This document shows, piece by piece, positions 4,434 to 57,933 of a DNA stretch of 64,000 nucleotides. The stretch comes from Bacteroidia bacterium (lineage in GTDB: Bacteria > Bacteroidota > Bacteroidia > J057): NCBI GenBank assembly GCA_030430575.1, contig JAUIKF010000001.1:124001-188000 (forward strand), read 5' to 3'. The notes below the pieces were generated by a model, which did not search any database, had not been told where the DNA came from, and worked only from the letters and a program-made list of their open reading frames with translations. Every line of letters starts with the position of its first letter. The stretch's first letter is position 1. Position numbers and translations under genes: made by a program.

Positions 4434-4527
4434 GTAAGAAAGTCATTAATACGCAAAAATACGTACCTAATAACCTTCGACCAAATTATTCACCGGACTG
4501 TGGAGGGTACAAGTTTATGAGGAATGT

Positions 4528-4599
4528 CCTAGGTTTTAGGTTCTAAGTTCTAGGTCAGCATACCTAACCTAGAACCTAAAACATAAAACTTAGAACCTT
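4528..4599. repeat. TTCTAGG-word inverted repeat (hairpin) between two minus-strand genes
   Basis: Degenerate tandem copies of AGGTTCT/AGGTTTT (4528-4555) are followed by inverted complements (AGAACCTAAAACATAAAAC and so on, 4562-4599), giving a long imperfect hairpin just downstream of the MFS transporter stop. It probably acts as a terminator. The same word makes the arrays at 50861-50962 and 57838-57933. Confidence 0.75.
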
Positions 4600-12601: not shown

Positions 12602-12723
12602 GGTTCAGGGTTCAGGGTTTAGGGTTTAGGGTTCAAAATCTGGGACTTGATTTACCAATCATTTTATCATCTACTCATATAATCATTTATTCATTTCCCA
12701 TTCTATCATTCTATCATTCTCCC
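12602..12723. repeat. Telomere-like and ATTCTATC word repeats between convergent genes
   Basis: Directly after the stop codon comes GGTTCAGGGTTCAGGG, then GGTTTAGGGTTTAGGG (12602-12633), tandem heptamers differing by one base. A second array of TCATT/CATTCTATCATTC words runs to 12722. Unlike other sites in the window there is no obvious inverted partner here. The region lies between two convergent genes and probably has only a 3'-end role. Confidence 0.65.
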
Positions 12724-15378
12724 CTAATACGCCCATCTTCCAGTTATGGGATTGAAGAAGGTCAATCCTACTTTGAACTGAGTCTTAATGGCATCTTCTG
12801 CATTGCTATAGGAAGTGACGAAATAGGTGCCAAATTTGAGTAACTGTTTGCGAATACGGAAAGGGTATTGAAGCCCGGCAAATAGTTCTGCGTGGAAAAA
12901 GCTCCCATCTTCAATCAGGAGCAGGGCACCTCCACCAGCGGACTGAAGGCGTGTACGCTTCAGTAGCGGAATCCTGTCCATCAAAGCCCCGCCAAAGTCG
13001 TGCAGGTAATGACCATCAAAAAAGGCATTTTGGGTGCTGATGGTAGGTCCCAACAGTTGAAAGGACCGCAGGGGATTGGCAAAAAGGTAGGGATCGGAGC
13101 CCCTAAAGAAGGTAAAGTCCGTGAATCGGATGTTATTAGCTTGAAGGAACCGGCCTATGTTCACAGACCATCGGGAGATGCCCAGTGTGGCAGGACGGAA
13201 TTCGTGGTTCACCCGCAAGCCCAGGTAATCAAAATTGAGCTCACTGTTCAAGATCCCAGCGATGGCCTTTTTGTAGTGTAACGTAAAGGTAGGCCATTTG
13301 CTTCCTAGATTGATCTTCCGATACGGTTCCAGTTGATACTTTTGGCCTGGGATAAACCGCACCTTTATGTCAAATAAGAACTCTCGGTAGGGATCAAAAC
13401 TTTGGGGCACGTTGAATTCACCAAAAAGATCCTCCGACCACTGGGACAGTTCCAACTCATCGATTGCCTTGCGATCGGCGAAGTCAATACTGGCATCTAC
13501 AAAGATTCCATTGGTCACCTCCATTCTATGTCCCACCCCAATGCTGCGCTTATTGATATAATTTCCACGCCCAAGTAAAGCAATTAGGGTAGCATTGTCA
13601 TTCACCATGCTGTAGGTGTCTCCCACCTTGATATAGGCATGGGCAAATTTGCGGGGATTGTAGGTGTAGCCCAATCGGAAATTGCCTTTGAGGTCTTTGT
13701 TATCAACCCCGTAGTTGAAATCCCCCCATAAATACATGGCTGTATAATTTTTCCACGTTTTCCGGATGGAAGTACCCAACGAATGTCGATACCCTCCTAC
13801 CCCATAGGGCTGAATTTGCTCAAGGATAGGGGAGAAATAGTAGCGCATCCCGCGCTTGCGGTCCCGAAAGGCAATGCCATTTACCAAGATGTCCAAAAAG
13901 GACAGATGGTTAAAAATGGAATCTACTTCCCTTAGGTGCTCGGGGCTGCGATAGTGGGCAATCAGGCTGTCCTGCCGTTTCACAAACTGCACATCCCGCT
14001 CTTCCATTGCCAAAGGCCGAACACCCGCCCAATAACTGGAATCTCGCTCAAAGGCTTCTTTGTCCGTTCGACGGAGTTCATTTCTGAAGAAGTTTCGCGG
14101 AAGTTCTGGGTCCAATTCATAGGCTGTATGTAAAGCCAGGGATTGGCCTTCATAGGTGGATGGGCCGTCTTTGACAGTATAGGTATATTCTTCCTTATCC
14201 AAAACCCATCGACCGTCATCTGTCTTGCTATAGTCATGTGCCACTTCAAATTGCTTAAAAAATGGCAAGGTGGATGGCAGCACCTCAAACCTCACAGATT
14301 GAATGGCCCAACTTCCGTCAACGATGATGAATTTCCCTTTAAAATAGGGACCATCCAGGTTTTTGGGGGTAATGGAAATGGTATAATGCACCTTCCCTTT
14401 CATGTAGTAGGTGGAGTCTAGGTGGTAGCGGTAGGTAATTGCCCATAGGGTACTATGAAGGGGAGAGACAAAGGGACGATCCCCTAACTTGGGCGCTTGT
14501 ATCAGGTTGCGATAGAAGTTCATCTCTACATCAGACACATCCTGATAGAACAAATAAGGATCCCTGGCAGGTGTCCGGTAATGGCCCGCATTTTCATTAA
14601 AATTGAAGGAAGAACTGATCCCTCCGCCATTGCGAGAACGACTCCTATAGGCATTTACGATGGTTTTATACTGCTTGGGATGGCGGTAATAGGTAGTTGA
14701 TTGGGATTCGACAAAATTGATCGTTTGGGGCTTAATGCTTAAGGTGATTTCCCCTGTATCTATCCACATCGTATCTGTAGTAATGGAATCATGCTCTATG
14801 ACAAAGCCCAAGCTATCCATGCCCAGTGTCAAGGTATCAGCCACCGCTACTTGAGCCAGCGAATCAATCTTCTTCTTGCGCCTTTCCTCTGCTGCTTTTT
14901 TTCTTTTTTCGGCAGCGCGACGAGCAGTAGTGCTATCTTGAACCAATGATATGCGCTGATAGGTATCACATTTATATCCTTCAAATTGCTGGATGAATTC
15001 TTTTTTATGTTTGATCACTTGCTTCATGATCGCATAAGCGGGGTCACGCCTGCCCCTTTCAATTTCAATTTCATCCAGTTCCATTTCCACGGGCAACAAA
15101 ACTACTTCTAGTGGCTGACTATCGGGGACATTCACAGCTACCACTTTTTCTCCATATCCCAAGTGCTTAATCATTAATTGGTAGGTTCCTGCTGCCAGAT
15201 TCAGTTGAAATTGGCCATCTGTATTGGTAATTGTGCCTGCACGGCTCCCCTCTATTTGAATACTCGCAAAGGCAATAGGCACACCGTCAGGGTCCAAAAC
15301 ACTTCCTGTAAGTGTTTGGGCGAAGGCGGAGAGGGAAAAGAAAAACGAAAGGGAAAACAGGAAACAGCGTCTTGTCAT
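12724..15378 (-). CDS. DUF5686 / carboxypeptidase-regulatory-like outer-membrane protein
   Basis: 884 residues with a signal peptide (FLFSLSFFFSLSAFAQ). Residues about 22-95 are a CarboxypepD_reg-like beta-sandwich (LTGSVLDPDGVPIAFASIQI ... GTITNTDGQFQLNL), as at the N-terminus of SusC-type proteins. The rest matches the DUF5686 family of Bacteroidota and ends in an aromatic, beta-strand-rich part (KVGLTFFNPITGRWAY) consistent with an outer-membrane barrel. A Lys/Arg/Ala-rich helix (AAEKRKKAAEERRKKK) sits near residue 160. It is not a TonB-dependent receptor, as no plug is seen. Its role is unknown; it is convergent with the T9SS cargo gene upstream, so no shared operon is implied. Confidence 0.88.
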   Translation of the reverse strand: MTRRCFLFSLSFFFSLSAFAQTLTGSVLDPDGVPIAFASIQIEGSRAGTITNTDGQFQLNLAAGTYQLMIKHLGYGEKVVAVNVPDSQPLEVVLLPVEMELDEIEIERGRRDPAYAIMKQVIKHKKEFIQQFEGYKCDTYQRISLVQDSTTARRAAEKRKKAAEERRKKKIDSLAQVAVADTLTLGMDSLGFVIEHDSITTDTMWIDTGEITLSIKPQTINFVESQSTTYYRHPKQYKTIVNAYRSRSRNGGGISSSFNFNENAGHYRTPARDPYLFYQDVSDVEMNFYRNLIQAPKLGDRPFVSPLHSTLWAITYRYHLDSTYYMKGKVHYTISITPKNLDGPYFKGKFIIVDGSWAIQSVRFEVLPSTLPFFKQFEVAHDYSKTDDGRWVLDKEEYTYTVKDGPSTYEGQSLALHTAYELDPELPRNFFRNELRRTDKEAFERDSSYWAGVRPLAMEERDVQFVKRQDSLIAHYRSPEHLREVDSIFNHLSFLDILVNGIAFRDRKRGMRYYFSPILEQIQPYGVGGYRHSLGTSIRKTWKNYTAMYLWGDFNYGVDNKDLKGNFRLGYTYNPRKFAHAYIKVGDTYSMVNDNATLIALLGRGNYINKRSIGVGHRMEVTNGIFVDASIDFADRKAIDELELSQWSEDLFGEFNVPQSFDPYREFLFDIKVRFIPGQKYQLEPYRKINLGSKWPTFTLHYKKAIAGILNSELNFDYLGLRVNHEFRPATLGISRWSVNIGRFLQANNIRFTDFTFFRGSDPYLFANPLRSFQLLGPTISTQNAFFDGHYLHDFGGALMDRIPLLKRTRLQSAGGGALLLIEDGSFFHAELFAGLQYPFRIRKQLLKFGTYFVTSYSNAEDAIKTQFKVGLTFFNPITGRWAY

Positions 15379-23715: not shown

Positions 23716-24561
23716 ATGTTTACCCTCGAAGATTTTCAAAAGGCAAAAAAGCGGTCTCATTTGATTGATATTGCCAATGCAAAAAATATTAATCTCAATA
23801 AACAACTCAGGAATTTACGCTATGAAGAAGAGTTAAGGCTATTGCAAACAGAGTTAGTGACCCTACAACAATGGATTGCAAAGAAAAAAATGCGTGTTGC
23901 GGTGATTTTTGAGGGAAGAGATGCAGCGGGCAAAGGAGGATCTATCAAACGATTTGTAGAACACCTGAACCCACGCTCTATGCGCGTGGTAGCCCTTTCT
24001 AAACCTACAGAAGAAGAGAAGGGGCAGTGGTATTTTAGGCGATATATAAAGGAATTGCCCAATCCTGGCGAAATCGTATTCTTTGACAGAAGCTGGTACA
24101 ACCGCGCTGTTGTAGAGCCAGTCATGGGTTTTTGTAATAATAAGCAATACGCCCAATTTATGGTGCAGGTACCAGAATTTGAGCATATGCTCTATGAAGA
24201 TGGGGTGCGCGTGATCAAGTTCTGGTTTTCCATATCTAAAAAGGAACAGCATACCCGATTTAATTCCAGGTTAAAAAACCCGCTAAAACGGTGGAAATTT
24301 AGTCCTGTGGATATGAAAGGGCAAGAATTGTGGGACAAATATACTTTCTATAAGGAGCAAATGTTTTCCAAGACCCATACGAGTTTTAGTCCTTGGATCA
24401 TCGTCAAGACCAATGATAAGCGGACAGCTCGATTGGAAAGCATGCGTCATGTCCTATCCACATTTAACTATTCAGCAAAGAATAAGTCAAAAGCGGTCTT
24501 GCTCCCAGATCCAAACGTTATTATTCGCTATTATAGAAACATGGATCAGATTGATATCTAA
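23716..24561 (+). CDS. ppk2: Polyphosphate kinase 2 (PPK2), first copy
   Basis: Cytoplasmic PPK2-family kinase (281 residues), which moves phosphate between polyphosphate and nucleotides. Walker A is EGRDAAGKGGSIKR and the Walker B/lid region is FFDRSWYNRAVVEPVMGFC. Other family blocks: NPRSMRVVALSKPTEEEKGQWYF (written here as its two halves, NPRSMRVVALSKP and TEEEKGQWYF) and FSISKKEQHTRF. It is a single-domain class I-type enzyme by length, so the direction (NDP synthesis or polyphosphate synthesis) is not decided. A second ppk2 lies 24 bases downstream. A -7-like box TAGATTTG occurs about 40 bases upstream of the start, with no good -33 match. Confidence 0.93.
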   Translation: MFTLEDFQKAKKRSHLIDIANAKNINLNKQLRNLRYEEELRLLQTELVTLQQWIAKKKMRVAVIFEGRDAAGKGGSIKRFVEHLNPRSMRVVALSKPTEEEKGQWYFRRYIKELPNPGEIVFFDRSWYNRAVVEPVMGFCNNKQYAQFMVQVPEFEHMLYEDGVRVIKFWFSISKKEQHTRFNSRLKNPLKRWKFSPVDMKGQELWDKYTFYKEQMFSKTHTSFSPWIIVKTNDKRTARLESMRHVLSTFNYSAKNKSKAVLLPDPNVIIRYYRNMDQIDI

Positions 24562-24585: not shown

Positions 24586-25419
24586 ATGGCTGAAATAGAT
24601 TTGACTCAAGAAGATATTGCAATACTTAATTCTAAGATAGGATTAAAGTACCTATTAGCTGATCAAAAATTGAATTATGATCGGGCATTACGTCAGGCCA
24701 GATACGAGATACGCCTTAGGGAACTCCAAACGGAATTAATTAAGCTACAAAATTGGATCATAAAAGAAGAGAAAAAGGCTATTTTCATTTTTGAGGGCAG
24801 AGATGCCGCAGGAAAAGGGGGAGCTATTCGGCGGATTACGGCTCATATCAACCCGCGCTACTATAGGATCGTGGCACTTCCCAAACCTACAGTTGAAGAG
24901 CAGGGACAATGGTATTTTCAGCGGTATGTCAACAAATTGCCTAAGCCAGGGGAGATGGTTTTCTTTGACCGCAGTTGGTATAACCGTGCAGTGGTCGAAC
25001 CAGTCAATGATTTTTGTACTGAACAGCAATACCACCGATTTATGGGGCAAGTCAATGAGTTTGAGCGAATGATCACCGAGTCTGATACCTTTTTCATCAA
25101 ATTTTATTTTTCCATTTCTAAAGAAGAACAAGCAGCTCGATTCAAGGACATTAAAAGTAGCCCCCTCAAGCGCTGGAAAATGACGGCAGTTGATGAGAAA
25201 GCACAAGCGTTATGGGATAAGTATACCCATTACAAAAAACTGATGTTCGAAAAAACTGATACTGAATTATGCCCTTGGGTAATTCTTGAAGCAGATAAAA
25301 AAATATCTGCTCGAATAGCAGCAACCGAACACATCCTAAATACCATTCCCTATCAAGATGTAAGCCTATTGGATGACTTTTCATCCACAGTTCCTCCCCA
25401 GACCAAGCCAACAGATTGA
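24586..25419 (+). CDS. ppk2: Polyphosphate kinase 2 (PPK2), second copy
   Basis: 277-residue paralogue of the preceding gene, with the same blocks: FEGRDAAGKGGAIRRI, NPRYYRIVALPKPTVEEQGQ, FFDRSWYNRAVVEPVNDFC, FYFSISKEEQAARFKD and SPLKRWKMTAVDEKAQALWD. Both copies keep the Walker A lysine and the RSWYNR lid, so both look active. The tandem arrangement suggests duplication followed by specialisation, for example on different nucleotides; that is inference. The short hairpin GGAGGGCTGCCCCTCC lies right after the stop. Confidence 0.93.
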   Translation: MAEIDLTQEDIAILNSKIGLKYLLADQKLNYDRALRQARYEIRLRELQTELIKLQNWIIKEEKKAIFIFEGRDAAGKGGAIRRITAHINPRYYRIVALPKPTVEEQGQWYFQRYVNKLPKPGEMVFFDRSWYNRAVVEPVNDFCTEQQYHRFMGQVNEFERMITESDTFFIKFYFSISKEEQAARFKDIKSSPLKRWKMTAVDEKAQALWDKYTHYKKLMFEKTDTELCPWVILEADKKISARIAATEHILNTIPYQDVSLLDDFSSTVPPQTKPTD

Positions 25420-25728: not shown

Positions 25729-26103
25729 ATGGTTATTTCTGCTATTGCTACCATTTTCATGCTGGTAATGGTAATTCATCTTATTATTATTGCTATTAAG
25801 AAACGATTTCCAGAAGCCGAAGAGAATGAAATGCACCTTCCAATCCCATATTTAACAGATAGTGTAAGCAACCATAAAGATCAGGATCGTTTATCTTTAG
25901 AGGATTTCACCATTTGGGGGGAAATGCTCGCTACTGTTTATCAGCCCACAGGGGTCAATGCCCCAATAAGACAAGCATATTTATTGTCCAAACTCAATCA
26001 AATAGTTGTAGACTTCAATAGAAGAGGGATCGTCAAGGAAGGGTTTGTCCACCTTCGACCAGGTAAGTGTTTAGAAATCCTTTTACAAGGGTTAAATGAC
26101 TAA
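25729..26103 (+). CDS. Small membrane-anchored protein, paralogue of 26399-26767
   Basis: 124 residues from the ATG at 25729 (a TTG at 25699 is in frame but adds ten residues before the membrane helix). One N-terminal helix (VISAIATIFMLVMVIHLIII) then a basic stop-transfer (KKRF), an acidic linker, and a soluble helical C-terminus ending FNRRGIVKEGFVHLRPGKCL. That ending matches the downstream paralogue (YRGVIKKGFIYLPRQQCFQM) and has the look of a small winged-helix wing, but I do not recognise the family. The REPIN-like element begins at the base after its stop codon. It follows the two ppk2 genes, which may be accidental. Confidence 0.7.
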   Translation: MVISAIATIFMLVMVIHLIIIAIKKRFPEAEENEMHLPIPYLTDSVSNHKDQDRLSLEDFTIWGEMLATVYQPTGVNAPIRQAYLLSKLNQIVVDFNRRGIVKEGFVHLRPGKCLEILLQGLND

Positions 26104-26229
26104 CTAGTGCATCAAGCACGAAGTTCTTATGGGTTTGGGGGCTGGATTACGCTCAAAAGCCAACTCACACGCCAGAAATCCAGCCCAGCGCATATAAATG
26201 CGCGTTTTCTTAGTTGCCAAGCAAGCTGG
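26104..26229 (+). repeat. REPIN-like element, copy A (one half)
   Basis: It starts immediately after the upstream stop codon with CTAGTGCATCAAGCACGAAG, the same end as copy C. A hairpin follows (GGGCTGGATTAC at 26139-26150 against AAATCCAGCCC at 26176-26186), then CAGCGCATATAAATGCGC and GTTGCCAAGCAAGCTGG, which occur in the same order in the reverse strand of copy C. The second half present in copy C is missing here. Confidence 0.85.
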
Positions 26230-27734: not shown

Positions 27735-27873
27735 ATAAAAATTATGAATGAATAATTAAAAATGGAAAATGAAAAATTGAGAATGGAGAAGGAATAGCCG
27801 GGGGAATTGGACTTGGCCCAATATTTAACTATTCTTTCTCCCATTCTATCATCCTATCAATCTCTCATTTTCT
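27735..27873. repeat. AT-rich AATGA/TCATT word arrays forming an inverted pair
   Basis: Words such as ATGAATGAATAATT and GGAAAATGAAAAATTG (27740-27790) are opposed by CCCATTCTATCATCCTATC and TCTCATTTTC (27838-27872). They lie between two minus-strand genes and belong to the low-complexity hairpin class seen at 37992-38083 and 48308-48360. Confidence 0.5.
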
Positions 27874-27875
27874 TT

Positions 27876-37991: not shown

Positions 37992-38083
37992 TGGGGAAAT
38001 GATAAAATGAGTAGATGAATAAATGAGAAAATGGGATGAGGTAAATTTAATCATTTTCTCATCTTCTCATTTATTCATTATTT
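37992..38083. repeat. AATGAGA/TCTCATT word hairpin between two DinB genes
   Basis: GATGAATAAATGAGAAAATG (about 38012-38032) is opposed by CATTTTCTCATCTTCTCATT (38052-38072) and TATTCATT. It lies between two minus-strand genes and could end transcription of the upstream one. Confidence 0.6.
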
Positions 38084-38644
38084 CTAATACAACCGCTCAG
38101 GCAACAACATTTTCATATCCATGGGGCGGCCAAGGAGCGCCCGAAGTTCCAGGATCTGGCCGAGATGGCGCTCGCTATGGTCAGCATAAAGTTCTAGCAA
38201 TTGGCGGAGGCTCATTTGCCCCCATTCGGGGTGTAAGCCCGTTCGTTTCCAGTCTGATTCACAGGCACTGTGAAACAGGAGAGAAGCAGTCATTCTAAGG
38301 CTTTCAAATAACTGCAGAGCATATTGTACATCGCTTTGTCCAGCTTTTTGATATTGAAAGCGAACAGCCCATAGTTCTTGGTCGTATCGAGGCAAAACAG
38401 GCTGGTCTTCGCCCAAAATCATTCTAAGCCTGGTACCTCCCAGCACTTCTGCATCAGCAAGATGGAGGATCAACTCAGAAATAGACCATTTTCCAGGTTT
38501 TGGGTGAGCGCGCAATTCCGTGAGTGTCAGGCCTTCTACAACTTTTCGTAGGCGATAAGGCCCCGCATCGAAAGCAGCGATGAGCTCTTGTGTCGGCCGG
38601 AAACGGTAGGTCGTTGGGAATGGCGTAAGTGTTGAGAGTTTCAT
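38084..38644 (-). CDS. DinB-family protein (186 residues)
   Basis: DinB_2-type four-helix protein. Metal-ligand histidine positions: LILHLADAEVLGGTRLR and LLELYADHSERHLGQILELR; a third in the middle (LLFHSACESDWKR). Family members include thiol-dependent S-transferases. It is distinct in sequence from the downstream DinB gene, so the pair is not a recent duplication. The ATG at 38644 is clear. Confidence 0.88.
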   Translation of the reverse strand: MKLSTLTPFPTTYRFRPTQELIAAFDAGPYRLRKVVEGLTLTELRAHPKPGKWSISELILHLADAEVLGGTRLRMILGEDQPVLPRYDQELWAVRFQYQKAGQSDVQYALQLFESLRMTASLLFHSACESDWKRTGLHPEWGQMSLRQLLELYADHSERHLGQILELRALLGRPMDMKMLLPERLY

Positions 38645-38866: not shown

Positions 38867-39802
38867 ATGAAAATCGAAATTAGACATCTCATGTTGGTAC
38901 GGGCCGTAGCTGCCACGGGCAGCCTCACCAAAGCGGCCGAATCCCTATTCCGGACCCAATCAGCCTTGAGCCATCAGCTCAAGGAAGTTGAGACGACGCT
39001 GGGCAGTCCACTCTTTTACCGAGTCAATAAGCGAATGGTCCTCACCCCAATAGGAGAGCGCTTGCTCAGTTCTGCCCACGTCATTTTGGACGAACTGGAA
39101 CAAGCTGAGGCCGAAATCGAGCAGACGATCAACGGGGAGGCAGGTTTGATACGGATCGCGACACATTGCTATACTTGCTACCACTGGTTGCCAAAGCTCA
39201 TGATGCAATTCCGTTCACTTTACCCTAAGGTGGATCTGAGAATCACTGCCGAGGCGACGAGAGACCCAATTCACTTTTTGCTGGATGGGCAATTAGATGT
39301 AGCGCTAGTTAATCGTGTAGAGGACCATCACCAGCTTCAATATACCCCCCTTTTCACAGATGAATTGGTATTTGTGATGCACCCCCAACATCGATTGCGA
39401 AACTGCGCTTATATCAAGCCAGAGGATTTTGCTTTAGAGAATTTTCTGATTTATACGAATGAACTAGAAGAAAACAGCACGTATAAATATGTCCTGGAGC
39501 CAGCCAATGTTCGCCCAAAAGAGATCACCAATATGAGCCTTACTGAGGCCATTTTAGAAATGGTTAAGGCCAATTTAGGCATTACCGTTATGGCAAAATG
39601 GGCCTTAACGCCCTATCTCAATTCTGACCAATTGCTGATCAAGCCAGTGGGCAAAAAAGGCTTCCAACGAACCTATTACGCCGCGACCATTGCTCAGACA
39701 AACCCACCTGCTTACCTCAATTGCTTTATCAAGCAACTCAAAGCGCTTGACATCAATAAAATGGGAACTGCAGAAGTGAAAGATGCAAAATTGATGGTTT
39801 AG
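38867..39802 (+). CDS. LysR-family regulator, MetR-like
   Basis: 311-residue LysR-type transcription factor. The HTH is residues about 5-60 (GSLTKAAESLFRTQSALSHQ). The effector domain shows IATHCYTCYHWLPKLMMQF, which resembles the IECHSCIQWL region of enterobacterial MetR, so homocysteine could be the effector. This is a pattern match only. The AhcY gene in this window belongs to the same methionine/SAM cycle but is 19 kb away. The upstream 222 bases contain an inverted repeat TGCGCACGAC (38696-38705) / GTCGTGCGCA (38761-38770). Confidence 0.87.
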   Translation: MKIEIRHLMLVRAVAATGSLTKAAESLFRTQSALSHQLKEVETTLGSPLFYRVNKRMVLTPIGERLLSSAHVILDELEQAEAEIEQTINGEAGLIRIATHCYTCYHWLPKLMMQFRSLYPKVDLRITAEATRDPIHFLLDGQLDVALVNRVEDHHQLQYTPLFTDELVFVMHPQHRLRNCAYIKPEDFALENFLIYTNELEENSTYKYVLEPANVRPKEITNMSLTEAILEMVKANLGITVMAKWALTPYLNSDQLLIKPVGKKGFQRTYYAATIAQTNPPAYLNCFIKQLKALDINKMGTAEVKDAKLMV

Positions 39803-39836: not shown

Positions 39837-39886
39837 CTGGATCGGATTACGCAAAGCTCCAACTCTCCATCCGAAATCCGATCCAG
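39837..39886 (+). repeat. REPIN-like element, copy B (minimal hairpin)
   Basis: CTGGATCGG (39837-39845) pairs exactly with CCGATCCAG (39878-39886). Inside are GGATTACGCAAAGCTCC and CCATCCGAAATCC, the core shared with copies A and C. It begins about 35 bases after the LysR stop codon. Only the central hairpin is present; the terminal ends of copies A and C are missing. Confidence 0.85.
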
Positions 39887-39972
39887 CGTGTTTATTTACT
39901 CATTTTTATTTACTCATTTCCCCAACCTATCATTCACTCATTCTATCATCCTATCATTTCCCCACCCCACCC

Positions 39973-48307: not shown

Positions 48308-48379
48308 AGAAGAAAATGAGAGAATGATTGAATGATAGAATGATAGAATGGAACAAATATTCTACTTAATTCGCCATTC

Positions 48380-49777: not shown

Positions 49778-49994
49778 CTAGTGCTTTCAGCACTAAATAG
49801 TTATTGGTTATGCTGAGGCGCGGATTACCCACAAACCAAAGCTGCAAAGCCGAAATCCGCGCCAGCTTGCCTAAGCAAGCAGCAAAGAAGCGCAAATATA
49901 TGCGCTGGGCCGGATTTCCGGATTGAGATTTGGCTCTTTGCGTAATCCGGCCCCATGTTATAAACCGTAAGGAACTTAGTGCTGAAAGCACTAG
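49778..49994. mobile_element. REPIN/MITE-like element, copy C (full length, 19-bp TIRs)
   Basis: The 217-bp element is bounded by CTAGTGCTTTCAGCACTAA (49778-49796) and its exact complement TTAGTGCTGAAAGCACTAG (49976-49994). Inside are two oppositely oriented hairpins: one with GGCGCGGATT (49818-49827) and AAATCCGCGCC (49853-49863), another with GGCCGGATTT (49908-49917) and AATCCGGCC (49944-49952). Between them lies GCGCAAATATATGCGC. The element has no ORF of its own. It separates divergent sulfite dehydrogenase and exporter genes, whose promoters would have to lie within or beside it. Confidence 0.85.
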
Positions 49995-50084: not shown

Positions 50085-50876
50085 TTGGACCCCTTACAAC
50101 TCCTCCTCTTCATCGCAGCTGGCATATTGACTGGCATTATCAATACCTTGGCAGGCAGCGGCTCATTGGTTACTTTGCCCATTTTCATGGAACTCTGTGG
50201 ATTGCCTGCTACCGTCGCCAACGGTACCAATCGCATAGGCGTATTGTTGCAGACTTTGGTAGGCATCAGGTCTTTTCACAAGCATGGGAATCTACACCTG
50301 GCAGGGGTAGAATGGCTGCTAATTCCTGCTGGAATAGGGGCTTTTATTGGCTCGCGATTGGCGGTGGATGTAGACAACCATTCTATGGAATTGGTCATAG
50401 GGGGGCTGATGGTATTGATGCTTGGCGTGCTCTTTTTGAAGCCTAAGCGATGGCTGAAACCCCAAGAATTGGGAGAGGTAAACAACCGCCGGCCTATCAA
50501 TTTGATCTTGTATTTTTTGCTTGGTCTTTATGGAGGGTTCATCCAGGCTGGCGTTGGCATTTTCTTGTTGGCAGCATTGGTTTTGAGTTCACATTACGAC
50601 CTGGTTCGTGCCAATGGCATCAAACTCTTGGTTGTGCTTATTTTTACCATTCCTTCTCTCTTCAATTTCATCCTCGCTAATCAGGTCAATTGGAAGTATG
50701 GCCTAATGATGGGAGCTGCACAAATGGTGGGCGCCTGGCTCGGTGCCCGATTCGCCAACCGATACCCCAAAGCGGACGTGTATATCCGCTACCTGCTGAT
50801 CATTATTGTGGTGGCAGCAGCTGTGAAGTTCTTGGGGATTGGGGAAATGATTGCTAAAGCAGGTTCTAGGTTCTAG
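50085..50876 (+). CDS. TauE/SafE (TSUP) family anion exporter
   Basis: 263-residue membrane protein of the sulfite exporter/TSUP family, about eight helices. N-terminal GIINTLAGSGSLVTLPIF and C-terminal GARFANRYPKADVYIRYLLI are family hallmarks. TTG at 50085 is the likely start; no ATG lies before the conserved N-terminus. Placed opposite the sulfite dehydrogenase genes, it may export sulfite or a sulfonate-derived anion; that is inference. The stop codon (TAG, 50874-50876) lies inside the tandem TTCTAGG array, so the last residues (GSRF) are encoded by repeat. Confidence 0.88.
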   Translation: MDPLQLLLFIAAGILTGIINTLAGSGSLVTLPIFMELCGLPATVANGTNRIGVLLQTLVGIRSFHKHGNLHLAGVEWLLIPAGIGAFIGSRLAVDVDNHSMELVIGGLMVLMLGVLFLKPKRWLKPQELGEVNNRRPINLILYFLLGLYGGFIQAGVGIFLLAALVLSSHYDLVRANGIKLLVVLIFTIPSLFNFILANQVNWKYGLMMGAAQMVGAWLGARFANRYPKADVYIRYLLIIIVVAAAVKFLGIGEMIAKAGSRF

Positions 50877-50962
50877 GTTCTAGGTTCTAGGTTCTAGGTT
50901 CTAGGTTTGATTGTTCTAAGTTGTATTCTGACCTAGAACGTAAAACTTAGAACCTAGAACGG
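50861..50962. repeat. TTCTAGG-heptamer array and inverted complement
   Basis: Six to seven head-to-tail TTCTAGG units (50861-50906) and an opposed arm ACCTAGAACG ... TTAGAACCTAGAAC (50931-50960) make a long imperfect hairpin between two convergent genes. The upstream gene stops within it. Confidence 0.88.
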
Positions 50963-56857: not shown

Positions 56858-57844
56858 ATGAAGTTTCCTTCCCCAATTACCCTCAAAGAAGCCGCCGAAT
56901 TATTGGATTGTCGATTTGTGGGGCCTGAAGATCATGTCATCACAGGTTGCAATGAAATTCATATGGTGGAGTCAGGGGACCTGACGTTTGTGGATGTGAA
57001 GAAATATTTCAACAAGTCCCTCACAAGTGCCGCTACCACCATCTTGATCAATGAGGAGGTGGCACCTCCTGAAGGCAAAGGTCTGTTGATCAGCGATGAT
57101 CCTTTTCGCGATTATAATTTGCTGACTGACCATTTTCAGCCTGAAATCCCGCTTGACGAATTGGGATCACGGATAGTGGGTGCCAATTTTCGGGTAGGGG
57201 AACATGTAGTAGTAGGGGAAAATGTCCATGTCGGTGATGGCAGCCAGATAGGCCACAATGTGGTCATTGGCTCCCATGTCCGAATCGGCAAAAACTGCCG
57301 CATCCACGCCAATGTGACCATTTATTCCCATACCGTCATTGGCGACGACGTCACCATCAATTCTGGCACCGTCATCGGTAGCGAAGCGTTTTACTTCAAA
57401 GCACGCCCCGTCGGTCGCGATAAGCTCCTCAGCAAAGGCCGGGTCGTCATCGAAGATCATGTCGATATAGGCGCCAATTGCACCATAGACCGCGGCGTGA
57501 GCGGCGATACGGTGATTGGCGAATGGACAAAATTCGACAACCTGGTTCAAATCGGCCACGATACAGTGATCGGCAAACGATGCCTATTAGCAGCCCAAGT
57601 TGGCGTAGCTGGCGTCGTGACCATCGAGGATGATGTCATCCTCTGGGGACAAGTGGGCGTCAACAAGGATTTGACGATTGGCAAGGGTGCAGTCCTCCTT
57701 GGCAAAACGGGCGTCATGTCCGACCTAGAAGGCGGAAAGACCTACCTGGGCATGATTGCCCATGATGTGCGTCAGCGCTTGCGCGAGGAGCATGCCATGC
57801 GGCAGTTGCCGGATGTGTTGAAGAAGTTGGAAGAAGGGTTCTAG
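56858..57844 (+). CDS. lpxD: LpxD-like UDP-3-O-acylglucosamine N-acyltransferase
   Basis: 328 residues. N-terminal LpxD-type uridine-binding domain ([30 protein letters not shown]), then left-handed beta-helix hexapeptide repeats ([20 protein letters not shown] and on). The catalytic histidine lies in [13 protein letters not shown], within GANCTIDRG...[16 protein letters not shown] is also present. The enzyme adds an N-acyl chain to the lipid A precursor in the cytoplasm. Bacteroidota often have more than one lpxD-like gene, so this may be a paralogue with another substrate. Its stop (TAG) lies in a TTCTAGG array (57838 onward). Confidence 0.88.
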
Positions 57845-57933
57845 GTTCTAGGTTCTAGGTTCTAGGTTCTAGGTTCTAGGTTCTAGGTTCTAGATGGAAC
57901 TTAACTTAAAACCTAGAACCCAGAACCTAGAAC
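57838..57933. repeat. TTCTAGG-heptamer array with inverted arm, after the LpxD-like gene
   Basis: Eight near-exact TTCTAGG units (57838-57893) and the arm AAACCTAGAACCCAGAACCT (57908-57927) form a long hairpin between convergent genes. The TAG stop of the upstream gene is in the first unit. Confidence 0.9.

Follow-up and report, generated by a model that had tools for sequence, protein, structure and literature searches.

Canonical GTAG REPs and REPINs, known from E. coli and Pseudomonas (PMC2817692, PMC3116915, PMC3733652, PMC8266576), are short hairpins with a 5′ foot and a stem mismatch that form inverted doublets, are linked to RAYT genes and carry alternative complementary stem letters in different subfamilies, and in all of these respects they resemble the dispersed hairpins analysed here. 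Since alternative complementary letters between GTAG REP subfamilies (PMC3733652) and preserved palindromes with differing letters (PMC2817692) were both noted earlier, covariation itself is not new for REPs. The present hairpins differ from the canonical ones in having a GCT foot in place of GTAG or GTGG, in that their sequence-fixed part is the inner stem, and in that a second palindrome often adjoins the foot. According to the main text of PMC6006769, the RAYTs of group 5 (subclass 2.6) belong mostly to Bacteroidetes and are flanked by “atypical secondary structures” without GT[AG]G; in the literature consulted, the REPs of Bacteroidota RAYTs had been recognised solely as atypical structures, identified by hand. 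Like our hairpins, the subclass 2.6 REPs presented there flank Bacteroidota RAYTs, occur elsewhere in the genome and lack GT[AG]G, but neither a consensus nor a strand nor covariation is given for them in the main text. The subterminal hairpins of IS200/IS605 elements (IS608), as that paper's main text treats them, are also alike in being single-stranded hairpins with a guide 5′ of the foot and an HUH/Tyr enzyme, whereas the repeat described here is dispersed in at least 150 copies without a gene and its cognate RAYT is a single gene.

The window, a 64,000-nucleotide stretch from the genome of a Bacteroidia bacterium (G000, 8.16 Mb), holds three copies of the repeat, A, B and C, the last with two halves (Table 1). 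A preliminary description of these copies reported stem flanks that differ yet stay paired, and all four stems were verified in the sequence: the GGATT...AATCC inner stem is common to A, B and both halves of C, and each outer stem of 5 bp is different and fully paired. The pattern GGATTAC..AAATCC has four matches in the window against 0.16 expected, and DNA folding z-scores of the window copies range from −2.1 to −7.4, the latter for hairpin B on the foot strand. The reported positions relative to genes also held, with the unit of copy A starting with CTAG at 26104, directly after a TAA stop at 26101-26103, and the stem of copy B starting 37 bases (about 35 in the description) past a stop that ends at 39802. 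The four hairpins are, however, paralogues of one repeat family and not independent as was claimed.

Table 1. Features of the hairpin repeat in the window (positions are those of the 64,000-nucleotide stretch; hairpins are named as putative REPs)
Feature	Position	Strand	Description
Copy A (left portion of a MITE-like unit of ~214 bp)	26104-26229	+	full-length sister units exist elsewhere in G000, e.g. G000:C9:146036-146249
Copy A terminal repeat	26104-26121		CTAGTGCATCAAGCACGA; then one putative REP hairpin and a spacer
Putative REP hairpin A	26139-26186	-	outer stem GGGCT/AGCCC, inner stem GGATT/AATCC, long loop
Outer stem arms of A	26139-26143, 26182-26186		GGGCT, AGCCC
Conserved foot of A	26187-26189	-	AGC on the + strand; on the folded strand, GCT preceding the stem
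Second small palindrome of A	26188-26203	-	GCGCAT/ATGCGC, adjoining the foot
Putative REP hairpin B	39839-39887	-	outer stem GGATC/GATCC, foot AGC 39885-39887; single copy
Outer stem arms of B	39839-39843, 39880-39884		GGATC, GATCC
Copy C, complete 217-bp unit	49778-49994	.	CTAGTGCTTTCAGCACTA terminal inverted repeat at both ends; two putative REPs, feet inwards
Putative REP hairpin C1	49817-49866	-	outer stem GGCGC/GCGCC, foot AGC 49864-49866
Putative REP hairpin C2	49904-49953	+	foot GCT 49904-49906, outer stem GGGCC/GGCCC

Searching G000, the genome that contains the window, with a pattern gave 190 matches; one minor class among them, a ACACAGATT repeat unrelated to the hairpins, was set aside. 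With a covariance model trained on 59 copies, at least 150 copies of ~50 nt were found in this genome, and in number and length the family thus agrees with REPs as high-copy hairpins of ~20-60 nt. For the statistics we used 135 hairpins from about 100 fetched stretches, the kept hairpins differing within 20 bases on either side; a search with one mismatch in the core returned mostly reverse complements of perfect copies and was left out. Counted from the core outwards, outer pairs 1-5 are paired in 73, 86, 95, 98 and 91% of the 135 copies, against 49, 51, 49, 62 and 82% expected from composition. In an alignment of 59 diverse copies, 95.6% of the cells in the five outer pairs are paired against 60.3% after shuffling, all five pairs show changes on both sides, and the covariation score of the outer stem is 0.827, compared with 0.213 after shuffling and at most 0.114 for slid partners. 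Compensating change, for which the four window copies alone are insufficient, is established by this larger set. The five inner pairs GGATT/AATCC show no variation among copies, partly because the search pattern required them.

The outer stems of the 135 copies fall into about ten frequent types, as they might in a neutral repeat family whose pairing descends from a small number of founders and is not under structural selection. As a tree-aware null we placed random changes on a tree of the core and loop sequence, keeping the same number per column, in 300 simulations. The observed mutual information was reached in none of the 300 at positions 1-4, and the simulations seldom attain the values observed at positions 2-4; at position 5 it was reached 18 times. 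The covariation, which the preliminary description had proposed to weigh against phylogeny, therefore exceeds what phylogeny alone would give, except at the outermost pair, where G-C dominates. That position 5 does not clearly rise above the null is what neutrality would predict, but the results at positions 2-4, a one-sided wobble bias (below) and the finding that outer stems with unrelated letters remain paired in different species make us regard a neutral origin as scarcely credible.

Beyond the stem, positions +6 to +8 read AGC in 135/135 copies, a triplet that the search pattern did not contain; on the complementary strand it is a GCT immediately 5′ of the stem, and position +9 is free. 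In the genomes of two relatives the GCT foot is found in 11/12 and 37/50 copies. As in REPs, a short motif on the 5′ side of the hairpin foot is thus conserved, but it is GCT and not the GT[AG]G of the canonical type. Non-Watson-Crick cells of the outer stem indicate which strand is folded: 53 are C.A or A.C on the GGATTAC strand, equivalent to G.T wobbles on the GCT strand, and only 7 are G.T on the GGATTAC strand. The asymmetry is 24 to 7 when each distinct stem is counted once and 15 to 6 without position 1, where two related subfamilies supply part of the bias. This bias toward the GCT strand points to a folded strand of the form 5′-GCT-N5-GGATTTC...GTAATCC-N5′, and a duplex or cruciform would be expected to give no strand bias. 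Covariation above shuffles, slid partners and most tree-aware simulations, together with wobbles mainly on one strand, bears out the suggestion that selection acts on a folded single strand; that it does so “rather than on sequence” applies to the outer 5 bp only, since hardly any sequence change is seen in the GCT foot or the GGATTTC/TAATCC core. In 47/135 copies, against 1.6 in shuffles, a further stem starts exactly at the GC of AGC on the GGATTAC strand, with sequences such as GCTTGC/GCAAGC, GCGCAT/ATGCGC and GCACGT/ACGTGC, and the foot is often enclosed by two hairpins with jointly varying letters.

The positions of copies A and B after stop codons raise the possibility of a structured RNA element of downstream 3′ regions, acting as a transcript end, a stability element or a regulatory RNA, and wobble pairs on one strand would fit RNA too. 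We nevertheless consider this very improbable: an Rfam search gave no match, the stem is followed by AGC and mixed sequence with no T-run, inverted doublets place both orientations in any one transcript, and copies stand in tandem at the RAYT gene. Between the RNA and the single-stranded DNA left open by the preliminary description, the flanking of the RAYT, the inverted doublets and the Rfam result favour single-stranded DNA handled by the RAYT over a processed RNA.

Neighbouring hairpins are oriented feet inwards in 35/42 pairs, with 27-75 bases between them, and feet outwards in 0/42; single hairpins also occur, and whole units have terminal repeats of their own. G000 has five near-identical units of 217 bp, copy C among them; they have unrelated flanks, begin with CTAGTGCTTTCAGCACTA, end in its reverse complement, and have 18-bp terminal repeats with CTAG at both ends. 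The unit of copy A has lost its partner REP and ends at the missing partner's foot, the interval 26104-26229 being one unit end. A second unit type with REP doublets ends in terminal repeats TAGGCTGTTCAAT (e.g. G000:C9:98131-98353 and similar). MITEs with TA or CTAG target sites have terminal inverted repeats and clean ends, as units C and A do, and the hairpins could on this basis ride as passengers on MITE-like elements that a DDE-type transposase mobilises, with an incidental RAYT link. Both the five CTAG-ended copies of unit C and the TAGGCTGTTCAAT type would be accounted for; many copies, however, such as B and those arrayed in tandem at the RAYT, lie outside units, one and the same hairpin is carried by at least two unrelated types of terminal repeat, and same-core hairpins flank RAYTs in other families of the class. 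We therefore think it unlikely that the hairpins are mere passengers. The units also differ from MITEs in that their interior is a REP doublet, their target-site duplication is putative and no autonomous partner was seen in G000, where matches to the terminal repeats pair only at ~200 bp and none at insertion-sequence length. An empty site for copy A was not recovered in the same-genus genome, in which the flanks are too diverged. As the unit ends, with their CTAG terminal repeats, are not REPs, a different transposase may have moved the units.

A single RAYT in G000, a protein of 180 aa encoded at G000:C73:309642-310181, scores above the NCBIfam cut-off (NF047646, 97.8 bits). Its motifs are an HUH of the form SHLH (not NH[LIV]H), WQ and YIHQNP, the last two also given for subclass 2.6 RAYTs in the table of PMC6006769, and H58, H60 and Y142 are invariant among four relatives; a PDB sequence search with this protein gave no match. 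Motifs, host phylum and NF047646 score agree with subclass 2.6/group 5, to which the protein probably belongs. Tandem hairpin copies with a period of ~90 bases flank this gene on both sides, and the copy with the best score against the covariance model adjoins it. The orthologue of this RAYT in a same-genus genome, 77% identical, has seven hairpin copies around it, so that in both genomes copies flank the genome's own RAYT, as is characteristic of REPs. Among genomes of the family, copies are present in 5/6 with a close RAYT and 0/7 without one (Fisher p ~0.005 by our own arithmetic, uncorrected for kinship). The RAYT of genome G001 has no flanking copies within ~1.5 kb, though this genome holds ~96 copies; its outer stem is of one dominant type, with a G.G mismatch in 28/50 copies.

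A GGATT/AATCC hairpin with at least 4/5 outer pairs lies no more than 500 bases from the gene at 25 of 100 RAYT loci examined across the class, the other 75 being without this core nearby. Outer letters vary widely among the 25 loci (AGTCG/CGACT, CCGCA/TGCGG, GGCTT/AAGCC, CTTTC/GAAAG), in which the demand for four of five pairs inflates pairing; without it, 111/180 small-loop cores near RAYTs have four or five outer pairs. The nearest hairpin has a GCT foot at 14/25 loci, and over all hairpins the foot occurs in 17/182 near a RAYT and 3/58 far from one, a weak test diluted by unrelated hairpins. On the RAYT tree, a quick FastTree with many weak branches, the hairpin trait is clustered (11 changes against 22 shuffled). 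Pontibacter RAYTs are adjoined by hairpins like GCT-GTTTC-GGATT-TCTT-AATCC-GAAAC, in which foot and core are identical and the loop is tiny.

We consider it likely that the hairpins are REPs of a Bacteroidota RAYT (group 5/TnpA-Y1 subclass 2.6), often arranged as REPIN-like inverted doublets and in some cases inside terminal-inverted-repeat units, and that the RAYT acts on their single-stranded DNA form. They would represent a poorly described variant of RAYT-associated REPs, and for the mechanism we infer steps beyond the sequence evidence. A small “domesticated” transposase probably recognises the mobile hairpin as single-stranded DNA: the HUH/Tyr enzyme would bind 5′-GCT-N5-GGATTTC...TAATCC-N5′ when it is single-stranded, for example during replication, and may recognise the GCT foot and inner stem through their sequence but the outer 5 bp solely through their helical form; it may also cleave near the hairpin and disperse doublets. 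Under such a reading the outer stem could drift through compensatory substitutions, with foot and core held constant. More speculatively, the substrate of Bacteroidota RAYTs could comprise two hairpins on single-stranded DNA, a small covarying palindrome whose last GC lies within the GCT foot, followed directly by the hairpin with five helix-read outer pairs and a sequence-read GGATT/AATCC, with REP doublets also captured in terminal-inverted-repeat units in this clade; if true, such recognition would be of a kind so far undescribed for HUH transposases. In the literature we found no description of a subclass 2.6 consensus, a folded strand, or a near-invariant core with a free outer stem, and the supplementary table of PMC6006769 may list some of the repeats. 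What is added to the main text of that paper is the GCT foot, the GGATT/AATCC core, the covariation of the outer 5 bp and a loop that measures ~25-30 nt in this clade. On a practical level, recognition becomes directly testable through the consensus (a GCT foot, N5 in paired form and a GGATT core), knowledge of which strand folds and the link to RAYTs in multiple families, and the consensus enables automatic annotation of REPs in Bacteroidia genomes.

Several other repeats were noticed. A second RAYT of the same-genus genome (L122/L152, G009:C73:24540) has upstream a tandem array of GGCACTTGGAAGTGCC palindromes with a period of ~29 bases, which looks like a further REP family. A different repeat, GGATTACACAGATT..CACGGATT.., dispersed over G000:C1:19035, C9:33201, C22:2397 and other sites, matched the same pattern and looks unrelated to the hairpin family. 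Within the window, arrays of the 7-base unit AGGTTCT occupy 50847-50921, 57815-57903 and 4510-4570, and apparently intergenic low-complexity repeats of the ATTCTATC/ATGATAGA type lie at 12657-12724, 27833-27874, 37992-38091, 39914-39966 and 48308-48357. Two adjacent related ORFs at 23716-24561 and 24586-25419 share stretches of ~75% identical DNA and are probably a tandem duplication.
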